From positions 1 to 40,833 of IMG/VR virus record IMGVR_UViG_3300007609_001205: a DNA stretch of 40,833 nucleotides. One strand, 5' to 3'. A program made the translations under genes and the position numbers. This DNA comes from a virus. Positions 18,663 to 39,631 of the stretch are shown piece by piece (position 1 is the first letter of the stretch; the number at the start of each line of letters is the position of its first letter). A model generated the notes under the pieces. It saw nothing but the letters and a program-made list of their open reading frames with translations, was not told where the DNA came from and did not search any database.

Positions 18663-20987
18663 ATGAGTAATTTCAGTAATCCAACATTCATAAATCCATT
18701 GAGTCAGACAGACCGGACCATCAAAATATATGATGAAGACCTTAACATAAGGCATACGATCAATGCGCACACAGTAAAAAATGTTTTTGTTGTGAATAAC
18801 CTTATAAAGATAAGTTTGAACTCGGATAGAGTAATAACATTAGACTTCAATTCTTCGAATGAGGCAACATTGGCACTACCCAAACTCAAACAACAAATAG
18901 ACCAATTGAGCAACAAAACCCCACTCAGAATTGATAAACCAATAGAAGAATATATCCAAGGAATGGGATTATCATATTCAAATGGAAACCTTTTTGTGAA
19001 TGCAAATATGATACCTGTATCTGGATCATATTCCATCGGTTCTTCTGCATCTCTTTGGAAAGATATTTTTGTATCAACAAGTTCGGTACATATTGGTGGT
19101 GCAACAATATCAAGTGATGGAAACGCCATATTAATGGATTCACTAGGATTGGTAAGTGGTACAAACTCATTGATACTCACAAATGATAATGGATTTCTGA
19201 ACATAGGTGGTTTAACTACATCAATGGGGACTACTGGACCAACGGGGGCTACTGGACCACAAGGTATTCAAGGTGCAACTGGGCCACAAGGACCAACAGG
19301 AGGTGGACTTGGATTATTGAACGGCTCAACTGTATCTATACCGGTAGGTATTATGAATATAAACTCAATACGTACTGAAATAAGCAATGAAAATTTTAAC
19401 TTTTTCACAACATCTGCAATATTCGATTACCCATATACATTTACAGGTGATATAGCAACATACTCAACTACTATTCAACCGGGCAATCGTCCATACACAC
19501 AAACCGTAATGACGGGATTGTTCAGTGTTGGAGAATTATTTCCGGGACTCGACATGATAGCAACCTATAAGTATTATATGTTTGGGGAAAGGGGAATAAC
19601 ATCATCATACTTAGAATCAAGTGAGTTCCAATCATCTGGAATAATCTCGAAATATACCTACATATATGCAGGACTAACCCCATCAAATGGATTATCTGCA
19701 TCAACACAACACCGCCACCGTTTTTATTATAACGATTACGTGGAAACATATGATAGTGGTGATGTATCACTGACATATGATGGTACTATGTCATACACAT
19801 ACAGTAATGATATAAATGAAGGACTTTCTGTAGAAAATTCATTTCAAATAGGGAAAGAATATAATTATGGTTTTGGGTTTATTGGAACACACTCATTGTT
19901 CATGAATGGAACATATTCAAATGTAACAAAACCAACCCACTCAGATGCATTCAGTGTATATGTTGGACAAGATTCGGCTCAATATATTTCTTCGGGAGAT
20001 AGTGCAACAGCATCAGCATTCAATGTTGCAGTCGGACATTCTGCAATGAAGGATAGTGTTCTATCATCTTTTAATGTTGCAGTGGGGTTCGAAGCAGGTA
20101 AGACTGCAGAAAATGCATTCAATACATATATTGGAACAAGTGCAGGTAGATATGACAAAGGGACATATAATACATACATTGGAACAAATGCAGGACAGAG
20201 TTCAACTGCAAGTTCTAACACAGTAAATAATACATTTATAGGCATAAATTCGGGACAATCATCATTAAGTGGCTCAGGTAATAATACATTTGTTGGTGCA
20301 AACTCCGGAAGTGATAACACCACAGGTGGATTTAACACATTCTTTGGGGCTTATTCCGGTGTTGATAATACAGAGGGTGATAACAATACCTTTATCGGTG
20401 CTTACTCAGGATTCAACCATACAACAGGAACTAACAATTTATTCATTGGCCACCAATCTGGATATGATACCATATCAGCATCTGCTTCTGTGATAATCGG
20501 TGGTTATTCTACAGAATTACTAGGATCACTATCTATTGAAAACATATACTTAGCAGATGGGAATGGGAATTTGAGATACCATTATGATGGAACACAATCT
20601 ATTATAAAAGATAACCTCAAAGTTGAAGGTGCTTTAGATATCGGTGCAGTATCTGAGAGATATGGACAATACACGACCTCATCAAATACACACTTTTATG
20701 ATTGCACATCCGGTAACATATTCTACCACGAATCTTTAACATCACCATTTAAAGTAGACCTCATAAACCTACAAGAGAATGATGTTAATACCATAACAAT
20801 AATATTAGAACAAAGTGGTACAATTTACCAACCAGAATCATATTTAATAAATGGAGTTACACATTCTGTTAAATGGTCAAATGGAACATACTCGTTTAAC
20901 TCTGACCAAACAGATATAATTGGACTTAGCATTTTAAAAACAGGTACATCATCAACTATACTTGGACAAACAAATACATTCAATTGA
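18663..20987 (+). CDS. Long fibre with collagen-like and YadA-head-like repeats
   Basis: 774 residues. A collagen-like run (GPTGATGPQGIQGATGPQG) lies at about residues 191-212. From about residue 440 to 615 there are eight or more repeats of the type N-T-[FY]-[IV]-G-x-x-[SA]-G (NNTFIGINSGQ, NNTFVGANSGS, NTFFGAYSGV), the pattern of left-handed parallel beta-roll heads in trimeric adhesins. The C-terminal domain (YDCTSGNIFYHESLTSPFKV) resembles fibre tip domains. This is probably a trimeric tail fibre that binds the host surface. TTAAATATATA ends 4 nt before the ATG. One base separates its stop from the next gene's start. Confidence 0.82.
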   Translation: MSNFSNPTFINPLSQTDRTIKIYDEDLNIRHTINAHTVKNVFVVNNLIKISLNSDRVITLDFNSSNEATLALPKLKQQIDQLSNKTPLRIDKPIEEYIQGMGLSYSNGNLFVNANMIPVSGSYSIGSSASLWKDIFVSTSSVHIGGATISSDGNAILMDSLGLVSGTNSLILTNDNGFLNIGGLTTSMGTTGPTGATGPQGIQGATGPQGPTGGGLGLLNGSTVSIPVGIMNINSIRTEISNENFNFFTTSAIFDYPYTFTGDIATYSTTIQPGNRPYTQTVMTGLFSVGELFPGLDMIATYKYYMFGERGITSSYLESSEFQSSGIISKYTYIYAGLTPSNGLSASTQHRHRFYYNDYVETYDSGDVSLTYDGTMSYTYSNDINEGLSVENSFQIGKEYNYGFGFIGTHSLFMNGTYSNVTKPTHSDAFSVYVGQDSAQYISSGDSATASAFNVAVGHSAMKDSVLSSFNVAVGFEAGKTAENAFNTYIGTSAGRYDKGTYNTYIGTNAGQSSTASSNTVNNTFIGINSGQSSLSGSGNNTFVGANSGSDNTTGGFNTFFGAYSGVDNTEGDNNTFIGAYSGFNHTTGTNNLFIGHQSGYDTISASASVIIGGYSTELLGSLSIENIYLADGNGNLRYHYDGTQSIIKDNLKVEGALDIGAVSERYGQYTTSSNTHFYDCTSGNIFYHESLTSPFKVDLINLQENDVNTITIILEQSGTIYQPESYLINGVTHSVKWSNGTYSFNSDQTDIIGLSILKTGTSSTILGQTNTFN

Positions 20988-20988
20988 T

Positions 20989-22503
20989 ATGTTAGGAAGG
21001 CTTTCATCACATATTGGACCACTGAATAAAATTGGTCATATTAAAACTAGTTTGGGTGGTGATAGTTTTATATCAACTTGGGACACTACTCAGGCTGGTA
21101 GTGCATCTGACACAGTAGTTCTACCACTTGAATCGGGTGGTGTATATTCGGGCACAATTGACTGGGGTGATGGTAATACATCATCATTAAGTTATGCCAA
21201 CAGAACGCACGTATATGCCTCATCAGGTACTTACACAATTACTATAAGTGGTACTATCGAAGGATTCCAGTTTAACAATGGAGGTGATAAAGAGAAGATT
21301 ATTGATATATCTAATTGGGGTGCATTAAACCTTACTAATGGCTCAGTATTTTACGGATGTGTTAACTTAGATATAAGTGCGACAGATGCTCCTACAATAA
21401 CTACTACAACATTTAACTCAATGTTCAGAGATTGTCAATCCATAGTAAATGCAGATTTAAATAGTTGGGATGTTTCTGCTGTAACTGATATGACTTACTG
21501 TTTTGGGCGAATTGGTGGTGGTAATGATACCTGTCAGATAAACCCAAATATCAGTGATTGGGATGTTTCTTCTGTTACTAATATGAGTTATATGTTCAGT
21601 AAGAATATTACATTTAATAGACCACTTAACAGTTGGGACGTATCATCTGTAACAAATATGTTTGAAATGTTCAGTGGTGCAGATTTATTCAATCAGCCAT
21701 TGGATAATTGGAACACTTCATCTGTAACAAATATGGGAAGGATGTTCGGTGGATATTCACTTAGAACAAATACTTTCAATCAGGACATAAACGCCTGGGA
21801 CGTATCCAATGTAACAAATTTCGTTGAAATGTTTTCTTATGGTGATTTTGCTGGCGATATAAGGGATTGGAATTTAACATCTGCATCATCAACGAATTTA
21901 ATGTTTGCTTATAATAATGGTACACCAAACCTTTCAAATTGGAACACTTCTACCATCACAGATATGGAGGAGATGTTCAGAAACTCTAATTTCAATGGAG
22001 ATATAAGTGGTTGGGATACGAGTTCTGTTACTAATATGGTACGTATGTTCCAAGTTGCAACACAATTCAATCAAGATATCAGTAGTTGGGATGTGAGTTC
22101 TGTTACTAATATGATAAGTATGTTTTCGGGTGCAGGTTCTTTCAATCAACCAATCGGTTCTTGGACTACTACTTCACTTGTAAGAATTGATAGGATGTTC
22201 AGAAGACTTTCTAATGTAGTGTGTGTCTTTAATCAAGACATTAGTAATTGGGATGTAACTGGTATAACAAATGCATCAGAGTTTATGAGGTTAAGTACTT
22301 CTTTATCAACTACAAATTACGACCCAGTATTGGTGGCTTGGGAAGCACAATTACAAACAGCATATCCAGGTGGTATAGGCTCACCAAATGTTAATATACA
22401 TTTTAGTAATAGCCAATACACATTAGGAAGTGCAGCCGAAACTGCAAGAACAAGTTTAATTAGCACATTTGGTTGGTCAATAACTGATGGAGGTGGAATA
22501 TAA
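20989..22503 (+). CDS. BspA/DUF285-like repeat adhesin with PKD-like domain
   Basis: 504 residues from the ATG at 20989, one base after the fibre gene's stop; an in-frame ATG at 20962 overlaps that gene and is less likely. Residues about 20-95 hold a beta domain with the IDWGDGNTSSLSYANRTHVY turn and THxYxxxGTYTITI pattern of PKD-like domains. About eleven DUF285 repeats follow, each with [IL]-x-x-W-[DN]-x-S-x-V-T-x-M-x-x-M-F. This repeat type occurs in bacterial surface lipoproteins, including Bacteroidota, but no signal peptide is present. It probably forms a surface-exposed adhesin attached to the fibre encoded just upstream. Confidence 0.82.
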   Translation: MLGRLSSHIGPLNKIGHIKTSLGGDSFISTWDTTQAGSASDTVVLPLESGGVYSGTIDWGDGNTSSLSYANRTHVYASSGTYTITISGTIEGFQFNNGGDKEKIIDISNWGALNLTNGSVFYGCVNLDISATDAPTITTTTFNSMFRDCQSIVNADLNSWDVSAVTDMTYCFGRIGGGNDTCQINPNISDWDVSSVTNMSYMFSKNITFNRPLNSWDVSSVTNMFEMFSGADLFNQPLDNWNTSSVTNMGRMFGGYSLRTNTFNQDINAWDVSNVTNFVEMFSYGDFAGDIRDWNLTSASSTNLMFAYNNGTPNLSNWNTSTITDMEEMFRNSNFNGDISGWDTSSVTNMVRMFQVATQFNQDISSWDVSSVTNMISMFSGAGSFNQPIGSWTTTSLVRIDRMFRRLSNVVCVFNQDISNWDVTGITNASEFMRLSTSLSTTNYDPVLVAWEAQLQTAYPGGIGSPNVNIHFSNSQYTLGSAAETARTSLISTFGWSITDGGGI

Positions 22504-23213: not shown

Positions 23214-23438
23214 CTATATTTCATCACTCAACAAACCAAGGAAAAAACTCAACCTATTTCTCCGTTTAATCATTTTATCATAACGCCTTTGGGCATCCAC
23301 ATCATCACAAACCCCACCCATATCACGGTCTATTTGCTCAAAACGCCAAAAATCTCGGATTGAACTCTCCAAGAGTGATAATTCTTTCTTGTTTTTTCTT
23401 CTTTCTTTTCCCGAAATAAAATAAGGTGATTCATTCAT
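23214..23438 (-). CDS. Unknown small basic protein
   Basis: 74 residues, highly charged and helical (KERRKNKKELSLLESSIRDFW; RRYDKMIKRRNRLSFFLGLL). The high Arg/Lys content suggests nucleic-acid or protein binding. It overlaps the end of the NADAR gene by 8 nt, so it is probably its operon partner. No family recognised. Confidence 0.6.
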   Translation of the reverse strand: MNESPYFISGKERRKNKKELSLLESSIRDFWRFEQIDRDMGGVCDDVDAQRRYDKMIKRRNRLSFFLGLLSDEI

Positions 23439-23964
23439 TTCCTTTACTTAAAAAATTTCTATTTACTCGATCTTCCAAAGATGGCTTTTCTTCATCCTTA
23501 ATACTTTCCCTTATCGACATTTGAAGGATTCCAAGTTTGTTCTCACCTCCCCCCTTCAAATTACAATTATCACATCTACAATCACCCCAATAATTGTCGT
23601 GATGGTAATTTCCCTCAATAATATGATCATCACCAGTTGCCAATAACATATCTTTGAGATCCTGATGTTTGGTGAATTTATAAGTAACACCAAATGACAT
23701 AACATCGTCTTTTATAGAATCCCAATCAGAACGTATCTTACGTGTTCTACCTAGCTTTTTAGCATCTGATGGGTCTTTTATACTCGAAATCATTTCTTTG
23801 AAATCGGGTTCAGTGAAATGATACCCACCATAGAATTGCATACCACGGAATTTTTGTGCTACATAATAATGCTCAACAGATGGATATGATATACCCTTGT
23901 GTTTTATCTCACATGGATAAAAGTTGGAAAGGAAAAAATATCTACCCCTAAACCTATCTATCAT
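23431..23964 (-). CDS. NADAR-domain protein (YbiA-like)
   Basis: 177 residues. The NADAR/YbiA family pattern is clear: FLSNFYPCEIKHKGISYPSV then EHYYVAQKF near the N terminus, KKLGR in the middle, and LLATGDDHIIEGNYHHDNYW followed by GDC and GGENKLGILQMSIRE in the C-terminal half. The family acts on ADP-ribose-linked N-glycosidic bonds. Some members remove ADP-ribose from guanine in nucleic acids, which reverses DarT-type modification. A phage copy could counter ADP-ribosylating or NAD-dependent defences, an inference strengthened by the two Nudix genes elsewhere in the window. The CRCDNC segment inside the domain could be a metal site. Confidence 0.87.
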   Translation of the reverse strand: MIDRFRGRYFFLSNFYPCEIKHKGISYPSVEHYYVAQKFRGMQFYGGYHFTEPDFKEMISSIKDPSDAKKLGRTRKIRSDWDSIKDDVMSFGVTYKFTKHQDLKDMLLATGDDHIIEGNYHHDNYWGDCRCDNCNLKGGGENKLGILQMSIRESIKDEEKPSLEDRVNRNFLSKGNE

Positions 23965-24337: not shown

Positions 24338-24367
24338 GAAAAAACCCTACTTCGGTAGGGTTTTTTT
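24338..24367 (-). terminator. Rho-independent terminator of the tmRNA
   Basis: A perfect 6-bp stem (CCCTAC/GTAGGG, 24345-24360) with a TTCG/CGAA tetraloop sits 9 nt beyond the tmRNA 3' end, followed on the minus strand by a T-run. A T-run is also present on the plus side, so it may work in both directions. Confidence 0.85.
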
Positions 24368-24368
24368 G

Positions 24369-24738
24369 TGGAGGCGGAGGGATTCGAACCCTCATCTTCA
24401 TAACGGAACGATATCAATCATTCACAAGTTTAGTCAAATTTTTCTAAATCTGACAAAATATTCGGTTCTTTCGTATCTAAAAAACTCCGACAAAAAACCC
24501 ACACCATTTTAGACTGCTGTGTTTCAGTGGAACTTTTAATGAATCAGTGGTTAAACCAACTCAAGCTCAGTTGCCTCGAACTGTCCGTTTCGTAGAACCG
24601 CTACTACATCTTCACGAGTACCTACTTCATTTGTAACGTTGCCGTTTACAAGTTGATCGACTTATCAAATCGGTGTCAATCAGCCCGATACCTGCTCAAT
24701 AACGAACGACATTATAAATCAACTGCCGAAACGCCCCC
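24369..24738 (-). ncRNA. ssrA: Transfer-messenger RNA (tmRNA)
   Basis: A 370-nt RNA. The acceptor stem pairs GGGGGCG (24738-24732) with CGCCTCC (24376-24370), with one G-U, and the discriminator A is at 24369. The T-arm is GAGGG-TTCGAAT-CCCTC (24393-24377). CCA is not encoded. TTTCGGCAG replaces the usual TTCGACAG-type D-loop and follows the acceptor directly. A 9-bp helix 2 joins 24710-24718 and 24397-24405. The H-type pseudoknot PK1 uses 24685-24689 with 24669-24673 and 24675-24682 with 24654-24661. Ten nt after it, TAAAC precedes the resume codon GGC (24643). The reading frame encodes about 30 residues, beginning GNVTNE and ending ATELELV, with TAA at 24551. The function would be rescue of stalled ribosomes and tagging of the product. 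The long tag and non-ALAA end are unusual. Confidence 0.82.
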
Positions 24739-24750
24739 AGATCATCATTA

Positions 24751-24801
24751 CTATATATTATACAAATATACGAAAAAAAGTTTATACGGATTTTATATAT
24801 A
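24751..24801. promoter_or_regulatory. Divergent promoter region of tmRNA and AAA+ gene
   Basis: TATAATATATAG on the minus strand (24762-24751) lies 12 nt upstream of the mature tmRNA 5' end. TTTTATATATA on the plus strand (24791-24801) lies 10 nt upstream of the AAA+ gene start. Because a tmRNA is not translated from an ordinary start, the motif here supports a promoter role rather than a ribosome-binding role. Confidence 0.5.
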
Positions 24802-28068: not shown

Positions 28069-29976
28069 TTAAATATGATTACGCCTCCAAACATACTTAT
28101 CTTGACCACAACCATAAACACGATGATACCCACGATCACACATTATCTCAACCTCTGTTTTAAGTGGGTCAAATCCATCTTTTATCAATTTACTTTTATT
28201 ATAATTGAACCTATGTTTACGAATACCATCAACAACCCACCAATAATTCGGTGATGTTCTGTATAACATTTCAAATCCCATTTTTTCATAAACCTTACCA
28301 GAAAACATTGATATATCAGCAAATGTGGATATCTCATCAACATCATTATTATCTATGTAATATTTAAATAATTTTGAAGCAGACCCATGTACTGTAGTGT
28401 TTAATTTATTACAAAATCTAACTAATTCATTTCCTTTCTTTGGAGAATGGAATAACATACAAGATACCAATTCACCATTATAAAAAAGACCAACAGCATC
28501 TCTATACGTTGTCTTGCCCTGTATATGATTCATATCTAAAAATTCATTAACCAACTTCTTATCATTTATCACTCTTATATCACACTTCCTACCGGGTATT
28601 TTATACTTGGTCAATCCTAAAAAATTCCTAATTATAGATTCAACAATATCTCGTTTATACAACCAATCATCTTCCCATATGTGTAGTAAATTAATACCTT
28701 GTTCATTACACAAATCAGTCTTTTCCAAATGATAATTAGAATGTTTATATAAGTCTGAGTGCCAATATAAACCATTATACTCAATTGCTATATTTTTCGA
28801 AGGTATATAAATATCCAATTCAAAGGGTGGTATTATTGATTTACTGTTTGGTATATACTCAACTCCAATACTATCCAACCATTCCATTATATTTTTCTCT
28901 TGACCCGACCCACTATTCAATGGGTTACATATTGAACATGGTTCAATGTTTACTGACAATCTTCTCTGTAATGTTGTTGGGTGTATCGAAAATGTATGTC
29001 CACATGAATCATTCTTCAAATCAACAAACCCCTTAATGTCTGAGGCGGATATGAATTCAAATCCCATATCATCATAGAATTTAATTCGTTTCATTAGCCT
29101 TTTTTCAACAAATTCATCACTATTTATGAGATTTTTATATTCTTCTGTTTGAGTATAATGAGTAGCACCATATTTATCATTCATTATACCATCTATGGAA
29201 TTTCTGAATTCATAAGATTGAAAATACCAATCAGTTCCATACTTTGACTTATTCGTATTTTTTACCTTATCAACATATATTGGGGACTGTGAATAATGAT
29301 CAACACCATACTTTGAATTATTGGTGGCAATTGCCTTGGCTTTATATTCATCTGTTCGTGTGAACCAATCAACTCCATATTTTTCTCTGTTTGTTCTAAT
29401 AGTCTTATCAATATATTCCAGACTTTGTACATAATGACCAACACCATATTTATACATCATAGTATCTTTAGAAGTTTTTTTAAACTCCTCTGTTTTGAAA
29501 TAATGATCAACACCATATCTCTTCAAACACGTATCTCGATACTTTTTTTTAACTTCCTCATTCTGGAAAGATGATGTTGTACCATATCTTTCTAAGTTCG
29601 TTGAAGCCTGTTTTTTTTTAACCGATAACAATTTAGCAACATTATCAACACCATACTTAGACAATGTTGTTTTTTTTCTTCTTACCTTAGTTTCCTTACT
29701 ATTTTGTGCACACTTAGCAGAACAATTCTTTTTATACCCATTTAACCAATTACGATTGAATGTGGTATCATTTCCACACACACATTTATAATATTTTGGG
29801 TAATCATTAACCCAATGCCATATCATTTGCTTGAAAGGTAAATCAAGAATTGAACAGAAATTTTCAATTTCTATTAATACCTCATTATAATTTTTTTCAA
29901 AATAACTTCTACGCATTCTGCTAGAACTACCATCCAATATATCGTTTATAACATTTAATCTCTTTTTAATAACCAT
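28069..29976 (-). CDS. Large homing endonuclease-like protein
   Basis: 635 residues. The N-terminal region has a Cys cluster (CVCGND, then CSAKCAQ), a likely zinc finger. Residues about 107-290 hold eight repeats of about 23 residues built on [KR]-Y-G-[VT]-x-x-[YF] (for example KYGVDHYSQSP), the DUF7487-type DNA-recognition repeat of phage mobile endonucleases. A second Cys pair (CSIC) precedes a Vsr/PD-(D/E)XK-like nuclease core, FELDIYIPSKNIAIEYNGLY, followed by WHS and LLHIWEDDW. A C-terminal GNAT-like region follows. It sits just downstream of the major capsid gene and its terminator, the sort of conserved site such free-standing endonucleases invade. Confidence 0.85.
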   Translation of the reverse strand: MVIKKRLNVINDILDGSSSRMRRSYFEKNYNEVLIEIENFCSILDLPFKQMIWHWVNDYPKYYKCVCGNDTTFNRNWLNGYKKNCSAKCAQNSKETKVRRKKTTLSKYGVDNVAKLLSVKKKQASTNLERYGTTSSFQNEEVKKKYRDTCLKRYGVDHYFKTEEFKKTSKDTMMYKYGVGHYVQSLEYIDKTIRTNREKYGVDWFTRTDEYKAKAIATNNSKYGVDHYSQSPIYVDKVKNTNKSKYGTDWYFQSYEFRNSIDGIMNDKYGATHYTQTEEYKNLINSDEFVEKRLMKRIKFYDDMGFEFISASDIKGFVDLKNDSCGHTFSIHPTTLQRRLSVNIEPCSICNPLNSGSGQEKNIMEWLDSIGVEYIPNSKSIIPPFELDIYIPSKNIAIEYNGLYWHSDLYKHSNYHLEKTDLCNEQGINLLHIWEDDWLYKRDIVESIIRNFLGLTKYKIPGRKCDIRVINDKKLVNEFLDMNHIQGKTTYRDAVGLFYNGELVSCMLFHSPKKGNELVRFCNKLNTTVHGSASKLFKYYIDNNDVDEISTFADISMFSGKVYEKMGFEMLYRTSPNYWWVVDGIRKHRFNYNKSKLIKDGFDPLKTEVEIMCDRGYHRVYGCGQDKYVWRRNHI

Positions 29977-37322: not shown

Positions 37323-37762
37323 CATCAAAAATCAAAGTAGATAGACACATACGTGAGTTCGAAAAAATGCTAGACATCTATTCATCCTACAAAGGTTGTC
37401 TAAGAACACTTAAATTAAACTCCATACTTGGCAAAAAATCTAAATTCACCATAGAGGAGATGAACCCAAGAATGACCATTGATCTGAATAATAGTAATGG
37501 TAATTCCATATTAACCTCATCCGATTACCAAACATCTTCCGTATTCACAATAAAAAACTTATCATTTATTATCAGTGATGACCTATATGTTGATGAAATT
37601 GAGTTAAAATATGACATTATTAATAAAGAATTATTAAACAGAGTCATCGAAAATTCAAATGACATTAAAATATCTCTTAAAGTATCATATAATGGTCTAA
37701 CCAAAGAACAACAAGTTGCAGGGTTTTACCTTGAGTTGAGTGATTTGATTCTCAACGATTAA
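37319..37762 (+). CDS. Unknown protein closing the plus-strand block
   Basis: 147 residues. The N-terminal helix (VDRHIREFEKMLDIYSSYKG) is basic. The rest is beta-rich (MTIDLNNSNGNSILTSSDYQ, FIISDDLYVDEIELKYDI). No domain recognised. It is coupled to the gene upstream by ATGA. Its stop codon overlaps the stop codon of the convergent portal gene by 4 nt, so the insertion boundary is tight and leaves no room for a terminator. Confidence 0.65.
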   Translation: MTSKIKVDRHIREFEKMLDIYSSYKGCLRTLKLNSILGKKSKFTIEEMNPRMTIDLNNSNGNSILTSSDYQTSSVFTIKNLSFIISDDLYVDEIELKYDIINKELLNRVIENSNDIKISLKVSYNGLTKEQQVAGFYLELSDLILND

Positions 37763-39492
37763 AATTCAAATTCATCACCGCCACCGACACCACCTTCATC
37801 TGGACCACCTTCATCACCACCAATATCTGGACCACCTTCATCACCACCACCGAAGTCGTCACCGCCACCAAAGTCGTCACCGCCACCAAAGTCGTCACCG
37901 CCACCAAAGTCGCCGCCACCGCCACCGCCACCGGCACCGGCACCACCCTCCATACCTTCAGCACTACCGGCACCATTAGGATCTCTTTCCCAATACCGTC
38001 TATTTTCTTCTTTGTCCTCAGGAGATAATTTAAGAATGTGATCGACTAGATAATCAATGTGAAAATATGGACTACCATCGGGTTTAACAACACCCGTCAT
38101 TGTTTGAAGTATCTCAGCCTTTTTTGCAAGGTTACCCAATTTTTTCCACTCCTCAAATAATTGATTCGATAAGAAATCGATATCCATCTGATTCATGATC
38201 TTTTGGTCTTCTTTCAATTCAGGGAACTCAACCAACATCTGCAGTTTCAATGGTTTAACAATAAGTTCTTTGAAGATTGCTCTTTGTCTTTGTATGAAAC
38301 TAGAAAATTCTGCCTCATCTCTTGTTATCTCAGCAGCATCAGTGAATACATTACCACCACCATTCTCATCTTGAAAACGCAACATAGGAATCTTAGAAGC
38401 CCTTTTCAATATGTTAAAGAACCATTTAAGTATATTATCCTCATTCAAATCATGACCTTGTGGTGATACAATCTCCATACTCGGCTGACCAGCATCCCCC
38501 TCAGGAAACCAAAACTGCTTATTATATGGTAAATGTTTATGCCCATTTATACTCAATGTACCCATAGAATCATCCCACTCTACCTCTTCTGAATAATCTT
38601 GTATCAGTTGTCCAATTTGTTCTTCGGCTCTCTGACGACCCAGGCCCTTTGTTGGGATAACAAATTTCTGATAAAGTGTTGCATTTATCATATTGAACAT
38701 TATCTTGGTCTGTTCAATAATCTTCAATTGGTTATATGGCTTTATAAGACCTTCAACATAAGAAGTTTCTGAATAATCATTCTGTGATGAATATGAAATA
38801 AATACCATCTGAGAATCTAAGAAAATTCTTCTCAATTGTGGATCTTCCGGATACTGTATCCACAAATGACCAATATTTGGTTCATATGCAGGTACAATTG
38901 TCTGTGGTTCAAGTCTATTGAAACTTATAATATTCTTGTTCTTATCATCCCAAACAATCTCCATTGCAATGTGTCCATCTATAAGGAAATCTCTCATTAA
39001 GTTCCAAGCAGATATCGAGTCAGAGAACCCATAAGTGTTATAAATCGTATCAAAATATTCCAAATACTTATCTCTTACCTCTTGTGGGTAATCATTGGAT
39101 ATATGTGAAGCATTACAGAAATCCTTATCTGAATAAACAATTGCCTCATCACATACTGTTGAAACGAAATCACGAATCTCATCTTTAATAGAATATTCTC
39201 TGAGAATCCTTCTCTTATCTGCATAACTTCTATCAAGGTATGGTATTGACTTCTGTGATAAAACACTGGCAACTGCCTTCCTCGAAAAGAAATCATACAT
39301 TGAATTACCTTCAACTGAATGTGGGTCTTCATTGATATTCACACCAACTGTGTTACGCATGATCATATCATCATAATTCATACCCCAATTGGAAAGGTTT
39401 CTCAATATTCTTGAAAATAAACCTCGGTTCTCCACTGCCGAGTTCGCAAAAGAAAATTGATCTTGATTATTATTCGGATTATAACTAGCCAT
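37759..39492 (-). CDS. 20: Portal vertex protein, T4 gp20-like
   Basis: 577 residues from the ATG at 39492 (MASYNPNNNQDQFSF). The frame is open to 39549, but that part is antisense-frame shadow of the HTH gene, whose stop lies 4 nt before this ATG. The gp20-type body is seen in DEIRDFVSTVCDEAIVYSD, LMRDFLIDGHIAMEIVWDD, the clip/stem region KFVIPTKGLGRQRAEEQIG, and the long-helix and crown region PMLRFQDENGGGNVFTDAAE. The last 75 residues are Gly/Asp-rich repeats (GGGDDF repeated four times), unusual for gp20 and probably flexible. It makes the dodecameric ring for DNA entry and exit. Confidence 0.92.
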   Translation of the reverse strand: MASYNPNNNQDQFSFANSAVENRGLFSRILRNLSNWGMNYDDMIMRNTVGVNINEDPHSVEGNSMYDFFSRKAVASVLSQKSIPYLDRSYADKRRILREYSIKDEIRDFVSTVCDEAIVYSDKDFCNASHISNDYPQEVRDKYLEYFDTIYNTYGFSDSISAWNLMRDFLIDGHIAMEIVWDDKNKNIISFNRLEPQTIVPAYEPNIGHLWIQYPEDPQLRRIFLDSQMVFISYSSQNDYSETSYVEGLIKPYNQLKIIEQTKIMFNMINATLYQKFVIPTKGLGRQRAEEQIGQLIQDYSEEVEWDDSMGTLSINGHKHLPYNKQFWFPEGDAGQPSMEIVSPQGHDLNEDNILKWFFNILKRASKIPMLRFQDENGGGNVFTDAAEITRDEAEFSSFIQRQRAIFKELIVKPLKLQMLVEFPELKEDQKIMNQMDIDFLSNQLFEEWKKLGNLAKKAEILQTMTGVVKPDGSPYFHIDYLVDHILKLSPEDKEENRRYWERDPNGAGSAEGMEGGAGAGGGGGGGDFGGGDDFGGGDDFGGGDDFGGGDEGGPDIGGDEGGPDEGGVGGGDEFEF

Positions 39493-39496
39493 AATA

Positions 39497-39631
39497 TTAC
39501 TTCTTTTTTTTATCCAAGTATATATACCTACCTGATGGCGTTTTTTCAACGTTGATCAAACCCTTCTTTACCCAATTGGATAAAGTTCTTCTTGTAATAT
39601 TGTATTTTTCCATTACTTCTTTAGCTTTCAT
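39497..39631 (-). CDS. 44-residue MerR-like helix-turn-helix protein
   Basis: Start ATG at 39631, stop TAA at 39497. The sequence has AKEVMEKYNITRRTLSNWVK followed by KGLINVEKTPSGRYIYLD, the winged helix-turn-helix of MerR/IS607-type N-terminal domains: recognition helix RRTLSNW and wing TPSGRYIY. No effector or dimerisation domain follows. Its stop is 4 nt upstream of the portal start, and TTTAATATATA ends 6 nt before its own ATG. It may regulate the portal or late operon, or be a relic of a transposon-type regulator. Confidence 0.75.
   Translation of the reverse strand: MKAKEVMEKYNITRRTLSNWVKKGLINVEKTPSGRYIYLDKKKK

Follow-up and report, generated by a model that had tools for sequence, protein, structure and literature searches.

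The window, a stretch of viral DNA of 40,833 nucleotides corresponding to bases 1-40833 of the 151,869-base IMG/VR record IMGVR_UViG_3300007609_001205, carries a tmRNA gene whose 30-codon tag frame belongs to a large family of tags found in viruses only. Judged by its sequence, this is most likely a functional-looking gene of a Mahaphage-group phage of Bacteroidota, and the conservation of the family indicates selective constraint on the tag peptide as such. The features of the gene and of its surroundings are the following.

24369..24738, minus strand: tmRNA gene, mature RNA in one piece with the CCA unencoded (RF00023; end-to-end alignment with 23 homologues)
24732..24738, minus strand: 5' strand of the 7-bp acceptor stem, GGGGGCG, G3 pairing with U70
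24370..24376, minus strand: 3' strand of the acceptor stem, CGCCTCC
24377..24393, minus strand: canonical T-arm, GAGGG TTCGAAT CCCTC, most of the family having GGCAGTA-type arms instead
24644..24648, minus strand: TAAAC element directly before the resume codon
24551..24643, minus strand: tag frame from GGC (24643) to GTT (24554) and TAA, encoding GNVTNEVGTREDVVAVLRNGQFEATELELV (the same frame kept in some 70 viral loci)
24763..24770, minus strand: TATATTTG, a Bacteroidota-type -7 box (TAnnTTTG) lying 24 bases upstream of the tmRNA (family motif count)
about 24339..24360, minus strand: intrinsic terminator, CCCTAC-CGAA-GTAGGG-TTTTTT (direct reading of the sequence)
23431..23964, minus strand: NADAR-domain gene, downstream neighbour of the tmRNA (PF08719, E 5e-29)
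37759..39549, minus strand: portal protein (phrog_213), used for placement in the Mahaphage group

The portal protein shares 73% identity with that of LR756502 (642 kb), 72% with LR745206 (634 kb), 51% with LR756504 (636 kb), 47% with LR756501 (735 kb) and approximately 30% with the portals of Lak phages. Because its closest kin have genomes of 634 and 642 kb, the 151,869-bp record is probably a fragment of a far larger genome. The huge-phage report (PMC7162821) describes the largest Mahaphages as infecting Bacteroidetes, and the sizes given there agree with those of the portal relatives. In the clade of the window the tmRNA gene lies in a structural region close to head genes. In 40 loci the tmRNA is directly followed by a gene of the NADAR cluster, and in 30 a Dam-like methylase gene, recognised by eye, lies further downstream. 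Other genes of the window include a homing endonuclease-like gene (phrog_3339) amid the head genes at 28069-29976 (minus strand) and a repeat-containing surface protein at 20962-22503 (plus strand), with DNA similarity to a cyanophage protein of 26-residue repeats. In G000, region 143610-144450 (L086) holds eight tRNA genes, three of them for Phe and three for Lys, with several redundant anticodons.

A search with the covariance model RF00023 returned a match over the full model on the minus strand (cmscan, 24738-24366, 59.9 bits, E 4e-21, for a gathering cut-off of 47 bits), and the acceptor stem, T-arm, helix 2, downstream pseudoknots and terminator on which the preliminary description had based its call of a phage-encoded tmRNA are all present. 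ARAGORN, run on the window, called no tmRNA at 24369-24738 (minus strand). The RNA shares with the standard tmRNA (RF00023, ssrA) the G3-U70 acceptor stem, the T-arm, helix 2, the resume element, the tag frame and the pseudoknot region, but differs from it by its 30-residue tag, the lack of an -AA end and a helix-5-like hairpin inside the frame; the commonest length of tmRNA tags is 10 amino acids (PMC11915505). Together with 23 homologues it aligns end to end, and at 30 of the 47 consensus pairs both positions vary while remaining paired. The alanine identity pair G3-U70 occurs in 23 of these 24 sequences, the exception being a shifted alignment row. Of 44 distinct sequences upstream of family tmRNAs, 33 contain the TAnnTTTG box, compared with a frequency of 3.7% in shuffles; this is consistent with a Bacteroidota host. 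The D-loop linker, which had been described as several bases shorter than usual, proved to be of ordinary length: about 11 nucleotides separate the acceptor stem from helix 2 in the Rfam alignment of the window tmRNA, for 10 consensus positions, and relatives are similar in this respect.

The window tmRNA keeps a canonical T-arm with a TTCGA loop, whereas about 42 of the 60 readable members of the family have a non-canonical one, with a GGCAGTA-type (GCA-type) loop on a stem of 5-6 bp. For the 6-bp form, available in 12 distinct versions, 100% of the cells pair and 15 are compensatory, as opposed to 78% and 6 in shuffles. Members with this altered T-arm at the 3' tmRNA end (L005, L006, L013, L014, L019, L044, L046, L052, L053, L057 and others) also have one A-U pair more at the base of the stem and a D-loop without GG. 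At its gathering score Rfam finds 2 of 17 scanned family loci, and with a relaxed threshold 1 of 7 rescanned loci, at 16 bits. Many viral tmRNAs are thus missed by standard detectors because of their altered T-arm.

Homologous tags were collected by degenerate pattern scans of IMG/VR, and BLAST revealed two huge phages (LR756502 and LR745206) whose match covers precisely the tag region. Approximately 70 viral loci with homologous tags were obtained, giving 38 distinct tags of 27-30 amino acids with the consensus GN[VT](x)NEV[AG][ST]xEDLV[AF]ALQNN... A TAAA[CT] element precedes the resume codon in 64 of 70 loci, in agreement with the earlier reading of GGC as the resume codon after TAAAC. All 38 distinct tags are free of stops up to the same stop position (TAA or TAG), and indels within the tag region of the family alignment are of 3 or 6 nucleotides only, that is, in frame. 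The C-terminal residue is Val in 21 tags and Ala in 17, and one tag of the 38 ends in AA. ELELV, the non-ALAA end first noticed in the window, is therefore one variant among several, related tags ending in LEVA, ATV, AVA or, in one relative, ELELAA. The comparison of these many homologues confirms the long frame as the tag frame.

Several codons of the core are fixed by the search patterns, so that its conservation is partly selected, and RNA pairing in two hairpins located inside the frame adds to the conservation of the tag. Among positions free of the pattern, alanine 16 is nearly random at its third base; the Val or Ala end is likewise independent of the pattern. The pN/pS ratio rises along the tag from 0.35 in the first part to 0.55 in the middle and 0.79 in the last. 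The N-terminal two thirds are better conserved than the tail, a difference owed in part to RNA pairing and to the search pattern. For the tag core, pN/pS is 0.55 when the long frame is read and 1.27 when frame +1 is. A stop of frame +1 occurs in the core of 40 of 40 sequences, this stop being fixed by the search pattern and hairpins overlapping the frame. A scan excluding the fixed GTA codon returned a single clear relative, L129, with the tag GEITNEVGTRADVEAVIRFIAPVAQEVELELAA; this is the member ending in ELELAA, and it carries GTT for GTA and thereby lacks the frame +1 stop. In the AlphaFold2 prediction, residues 10-18 of the window tag form a helix, at moderate confidence with a pLDDT of about 79, and the tail is disordered.

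Outside viruses, a search of 84,980 bacterial and archaeal species genomes with the tag pattern gave no genuine match, and a host origin of the tag was rejected on this ground. Two pattern matches obtained in this search were rejected as the same long protein-coding frame, not a tmRNA, resembling glutamate synthase by eye. The core tag, compared with 50,697 phage records, matched only the tmRNAs of LR756502 and LR745206, so that the tag does not appear to mimic another phage protein.

Partner genes were surveyed in 19 records carrying a tmRNA of the family, these contigs often being fragments. SmpB is encoded in nine of the 19, including all eight records of at least 227 kb, and was not found in the 151,869-bp record of the window. 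ClpP is likewise encoded in nine, the window's record included (bases 110303-110920, PF00574 211 bits), where its Ser-His-Asp triad is intact. Six family records encode a ClpC-like unfoldase of about 710 amino acids with two ATPase domains and a VGF loop like that of unfoldases that bind ClpP, and a seventh has a shorter ClpC-like match of 397 amino acids; no such unfoldase was found in the window's record, its carriers being seven large relatives. These proteins align to ClpC only from residue 150 to the end, indicating that the N domain is missing. Since the single AAA_2 match in each of the 634- and 642-kb phages is the ClpC-like protein, these genomes show no ClpX. Full ClpP was more frequent in the family (9 of 19) than among other tmRNA-bearing phages (2 of 20, p 0.014), a comparison confounded by the length of contigs. 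Two huge phages, G003 (79293-81875) and LR756502 (364599-368013), have an additional and shorter ClpP-like gene no more than about 3 kb from SmpB.

Lak phages and other Mahaphages share with the window a portal-defined group and encode SmpB, the Lak phages ClpP as well, but their tmRNA tags differ from that of the window: DDEIDFRMAA in Lak-A1, DDEIEFRMAA in Lak-B5, GNNAEMRMAA in a 462-kb phage, and DNVNSFEQSILNELFAPVEMAVAA and GDYKMNAEDMMSIPTSLTGKVATESFVEDLVLA, the last taken from an RNA match that is weak. In the 636-kb phage, a 24-residue tag ending in AVAA occurs together with ClpP, a ClpC-like protein and a ClpX that lacks RKH; the 735-kb phage has a 33-residue frame ending in LVLA, its RNA match being weak at 21 bits, and encodes a ClpB-like protein that includes the N domain. 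The 10-residue RMAA tags of distant members such as Lak and the 462-kb phage suggest that the tag was lengthened inside the Mahaphage group. Both Lak phages encode, besides ClpP, a ClpX with the RKH loop, where the large relatives of the window have the ClpC-like unfoldase; it is suggestive that -AA ends appear to go with the RKH-bearing ClpX and Val or Ala ends with the ClpC-like type. The match of the Lak-A1 ClpX (L255, 1192-3258, minus strand, 689 amino acids) is split in two, as if by an intein or insertion of about 270 amino acids.

Outside the Mahaphages, the phage of L113 combines ClpP and a ClpC-like protein with the tag GNTFAKLAALGLTKEEAVVTI. Phage G, which has ClpP and ClpX with the tag AKLNITNNELQVA ending in LQVA, and the Bxz1-type and Calle_1 phages, which have non-AA tags and no ClpP, do not fit the pattern of unfoldases and tags neatly, and the independent lineages are few. 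ClpP alone does not track the tag type, Lak and the 636-kb phage having ClpP with -AA tags, and a rule linking phage ClpP to non-AA tags (Fisher p 0.045, post hoc, three lineages) was discarded, being broken by these same phages; the suggestive link with the type of unfoldase took its place. For Cellulophaga phage Calle_1 (L007, 370-729, plus strand), ARAGORN gives the tag AQIEANMEAVNAILNLEVAVGV, and a TTTAAACGGA element suggests an earlier start, yielding GNNTNAVNAQIEANMEAVNAILNLEVAVGV (30 amino acids). A second, unrelated family of long-tag viral tmRNAs (L120, L124, L149, L165) is represented by DEMSTMTFEDLMAFVGADYAVAA and its relatives, of 23-24 amino acids and mostly ending in -AA.

In the explanation that we favour, at about even odds, a Clp protease, plausibly one encoded by the phage, would receive the rescued products, the tag serving as a degron for that machine and not for host ClpXP. 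The tmRNA would be transcribed from its own promoter, charged with alanine and, with SmpB of the host or, as the large relatives encode it, of the phage, enter stalled ribosomes. Translation would resume at GGC and add the 30-residue tag, the added peptide beginning with A followed by GNVTNEVGTRED. An N-capped helix (TREDVVAVLR) may then act as a recognition or docking element, and a flexible tail with a small aliphatic C-terminus would provide the initiation end for a Clp protease. Tagged chains would be destroyed by that protease, probably in part by phage ClpP with the N-domain-less ClpC-like protein; the ClpP of such a phage machine comes from the window's record and the ClpC-type unfoldase, without its adaptor-binding N domain, from the large relatives.

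This degron reading is favoured by the Val or Ala ends of the 38 tags, taken together with the phage genes for SmpB, ClpP and the ClpC-like protein, and we also count in its favour that Lak phages, with their RKH-bearing ClpX, keep 10-residue RMAA tags. Counted against it are the lack of SmpB and of the ClpC-like protein in the window's record, the failure of ClpP to track tag type, the misfits named above and the part of the conservation explained by RNA hairpins. The ssrA tag of Mesoplasma florum is also unusually long. Its pairing with Lon in place of ClpXP, in use as a tag-protease pair, is a precedent for tags that are suited to another protease (PMC10873288), although that system differs from the window in its cellular genome, in its use of Lon and not Clp, and in its unrelated tag sequence. 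Among the different fates first suggested for tagged products, another protease is supported by the partner genes, whereas stability and relocation find no support, every one of the 38 tags still ending in Val or Ala and that of L129 in ELELAA.

A wider proposal, which we put forward tentatively, is that the clade possesses an orthogonal system of trans-translation and proteolysis, composed of its own tmRNA with an altered tRNA-like domain, SmpB, the degron, an N-domain-less ClpC and ClpP, which would work independently of host ClpXP and whose tag would have changed with the swap from ClpX to a ClpC-type unfoldase.

It is rather unlikely, if well worth weighing, that the tag is an ordinary degron read by the host, its length arising from a frame that runs through helix 5, its Val or Ala end being read by host ClpXP or other proteases, and phage ClpP and ClpC serving otherwise. 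The uniformity of the ends across 38 tags, the ELELAA end of the close tag L129 and the short RMAA-ended tags of the group agree with a host-read degron, and 51 distinct other viral tags that were sampled (44 ending in AA, 11 of at least 20 amino acids) indicate that length alone is no sign of a new protease. However, a host-read degron fits poorly with the single AA end among the family tags and with the better conservation of the N-terminal two thirds, which would be unexpected if the tail alone mattered but is partly owed to RNA pairing and pattern, and it leaves the complete-looking SmpB, ClpC and ClpP set of the relatives unexplained.

We regard as improbable a tag that stabilises products, relocates them or sends them to virion assembly. 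The long conserved helix-forming segment and the position of the gene near head genes would suit such a role, but small aliphatic C-termini are kept throughout, no target system was found, and the core tag matched nothing in the phage records beyond the two tmRNAs named above. Still less probable is a competitor or decoy that mainly titrates SmpB or displaces host tmRNA, with an incidental tag: inhibition of tmRNA has been reported for a tRNA-like fragment of phage DS6A that has no tag (PMC11915505, PMC4131195), but here a full mRNA-like domain and tag frame are kept across wide divergence and the large relatives carry their own SmpB. Finally, resumption in frame +1, giving the six-residue tag ATLQMK with RNA structure alone keeping the long frame, can be dismissed as very improbable, since the Rfam alignment of the consensus resume triplet with GCA, one base on, and the overlapping hairpins are outweighed by the pN/pS values, the in-frame indels, the common end of all 38 long frames in Val or Ala, and a stop that is fixed by the search pattern and missing from L129.

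Long phage tags, including V-ended ones, are already known from the Bxz1 type. Mycobacteriophage ET08 (GQ303260) of this type has a V-terminal tag of 25 amino acids, ATDTDATVTDAEIEAFFAEEAAALV, read from its sequence, which resembles the window tag in length and end but is unrelated in sequence, and ET08 has no ClpP. An -AA end, which the window tag (ELELV) lacks, is no strict requirement for tmRNAs, the Bxz1-type tag ending in ALV. The occurrence of tmRNA and SmpB in huge phages was also reported previously, and the accessible part of that report (PMC7162821) contains no discussion of tag sequences that we could find. As far as the literature was searched, what is new is a tag family confined to viruses and widely conserved with Val or Ala ends, the altered T-arm that conceals most of its members, and the SmpB, ClpC and ClpP genes that accompany it. 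This large family makes the question of a virus-owned degron directly testable; it could also be a source of new pairs of tag and protease with which to control the degradation of proteins.
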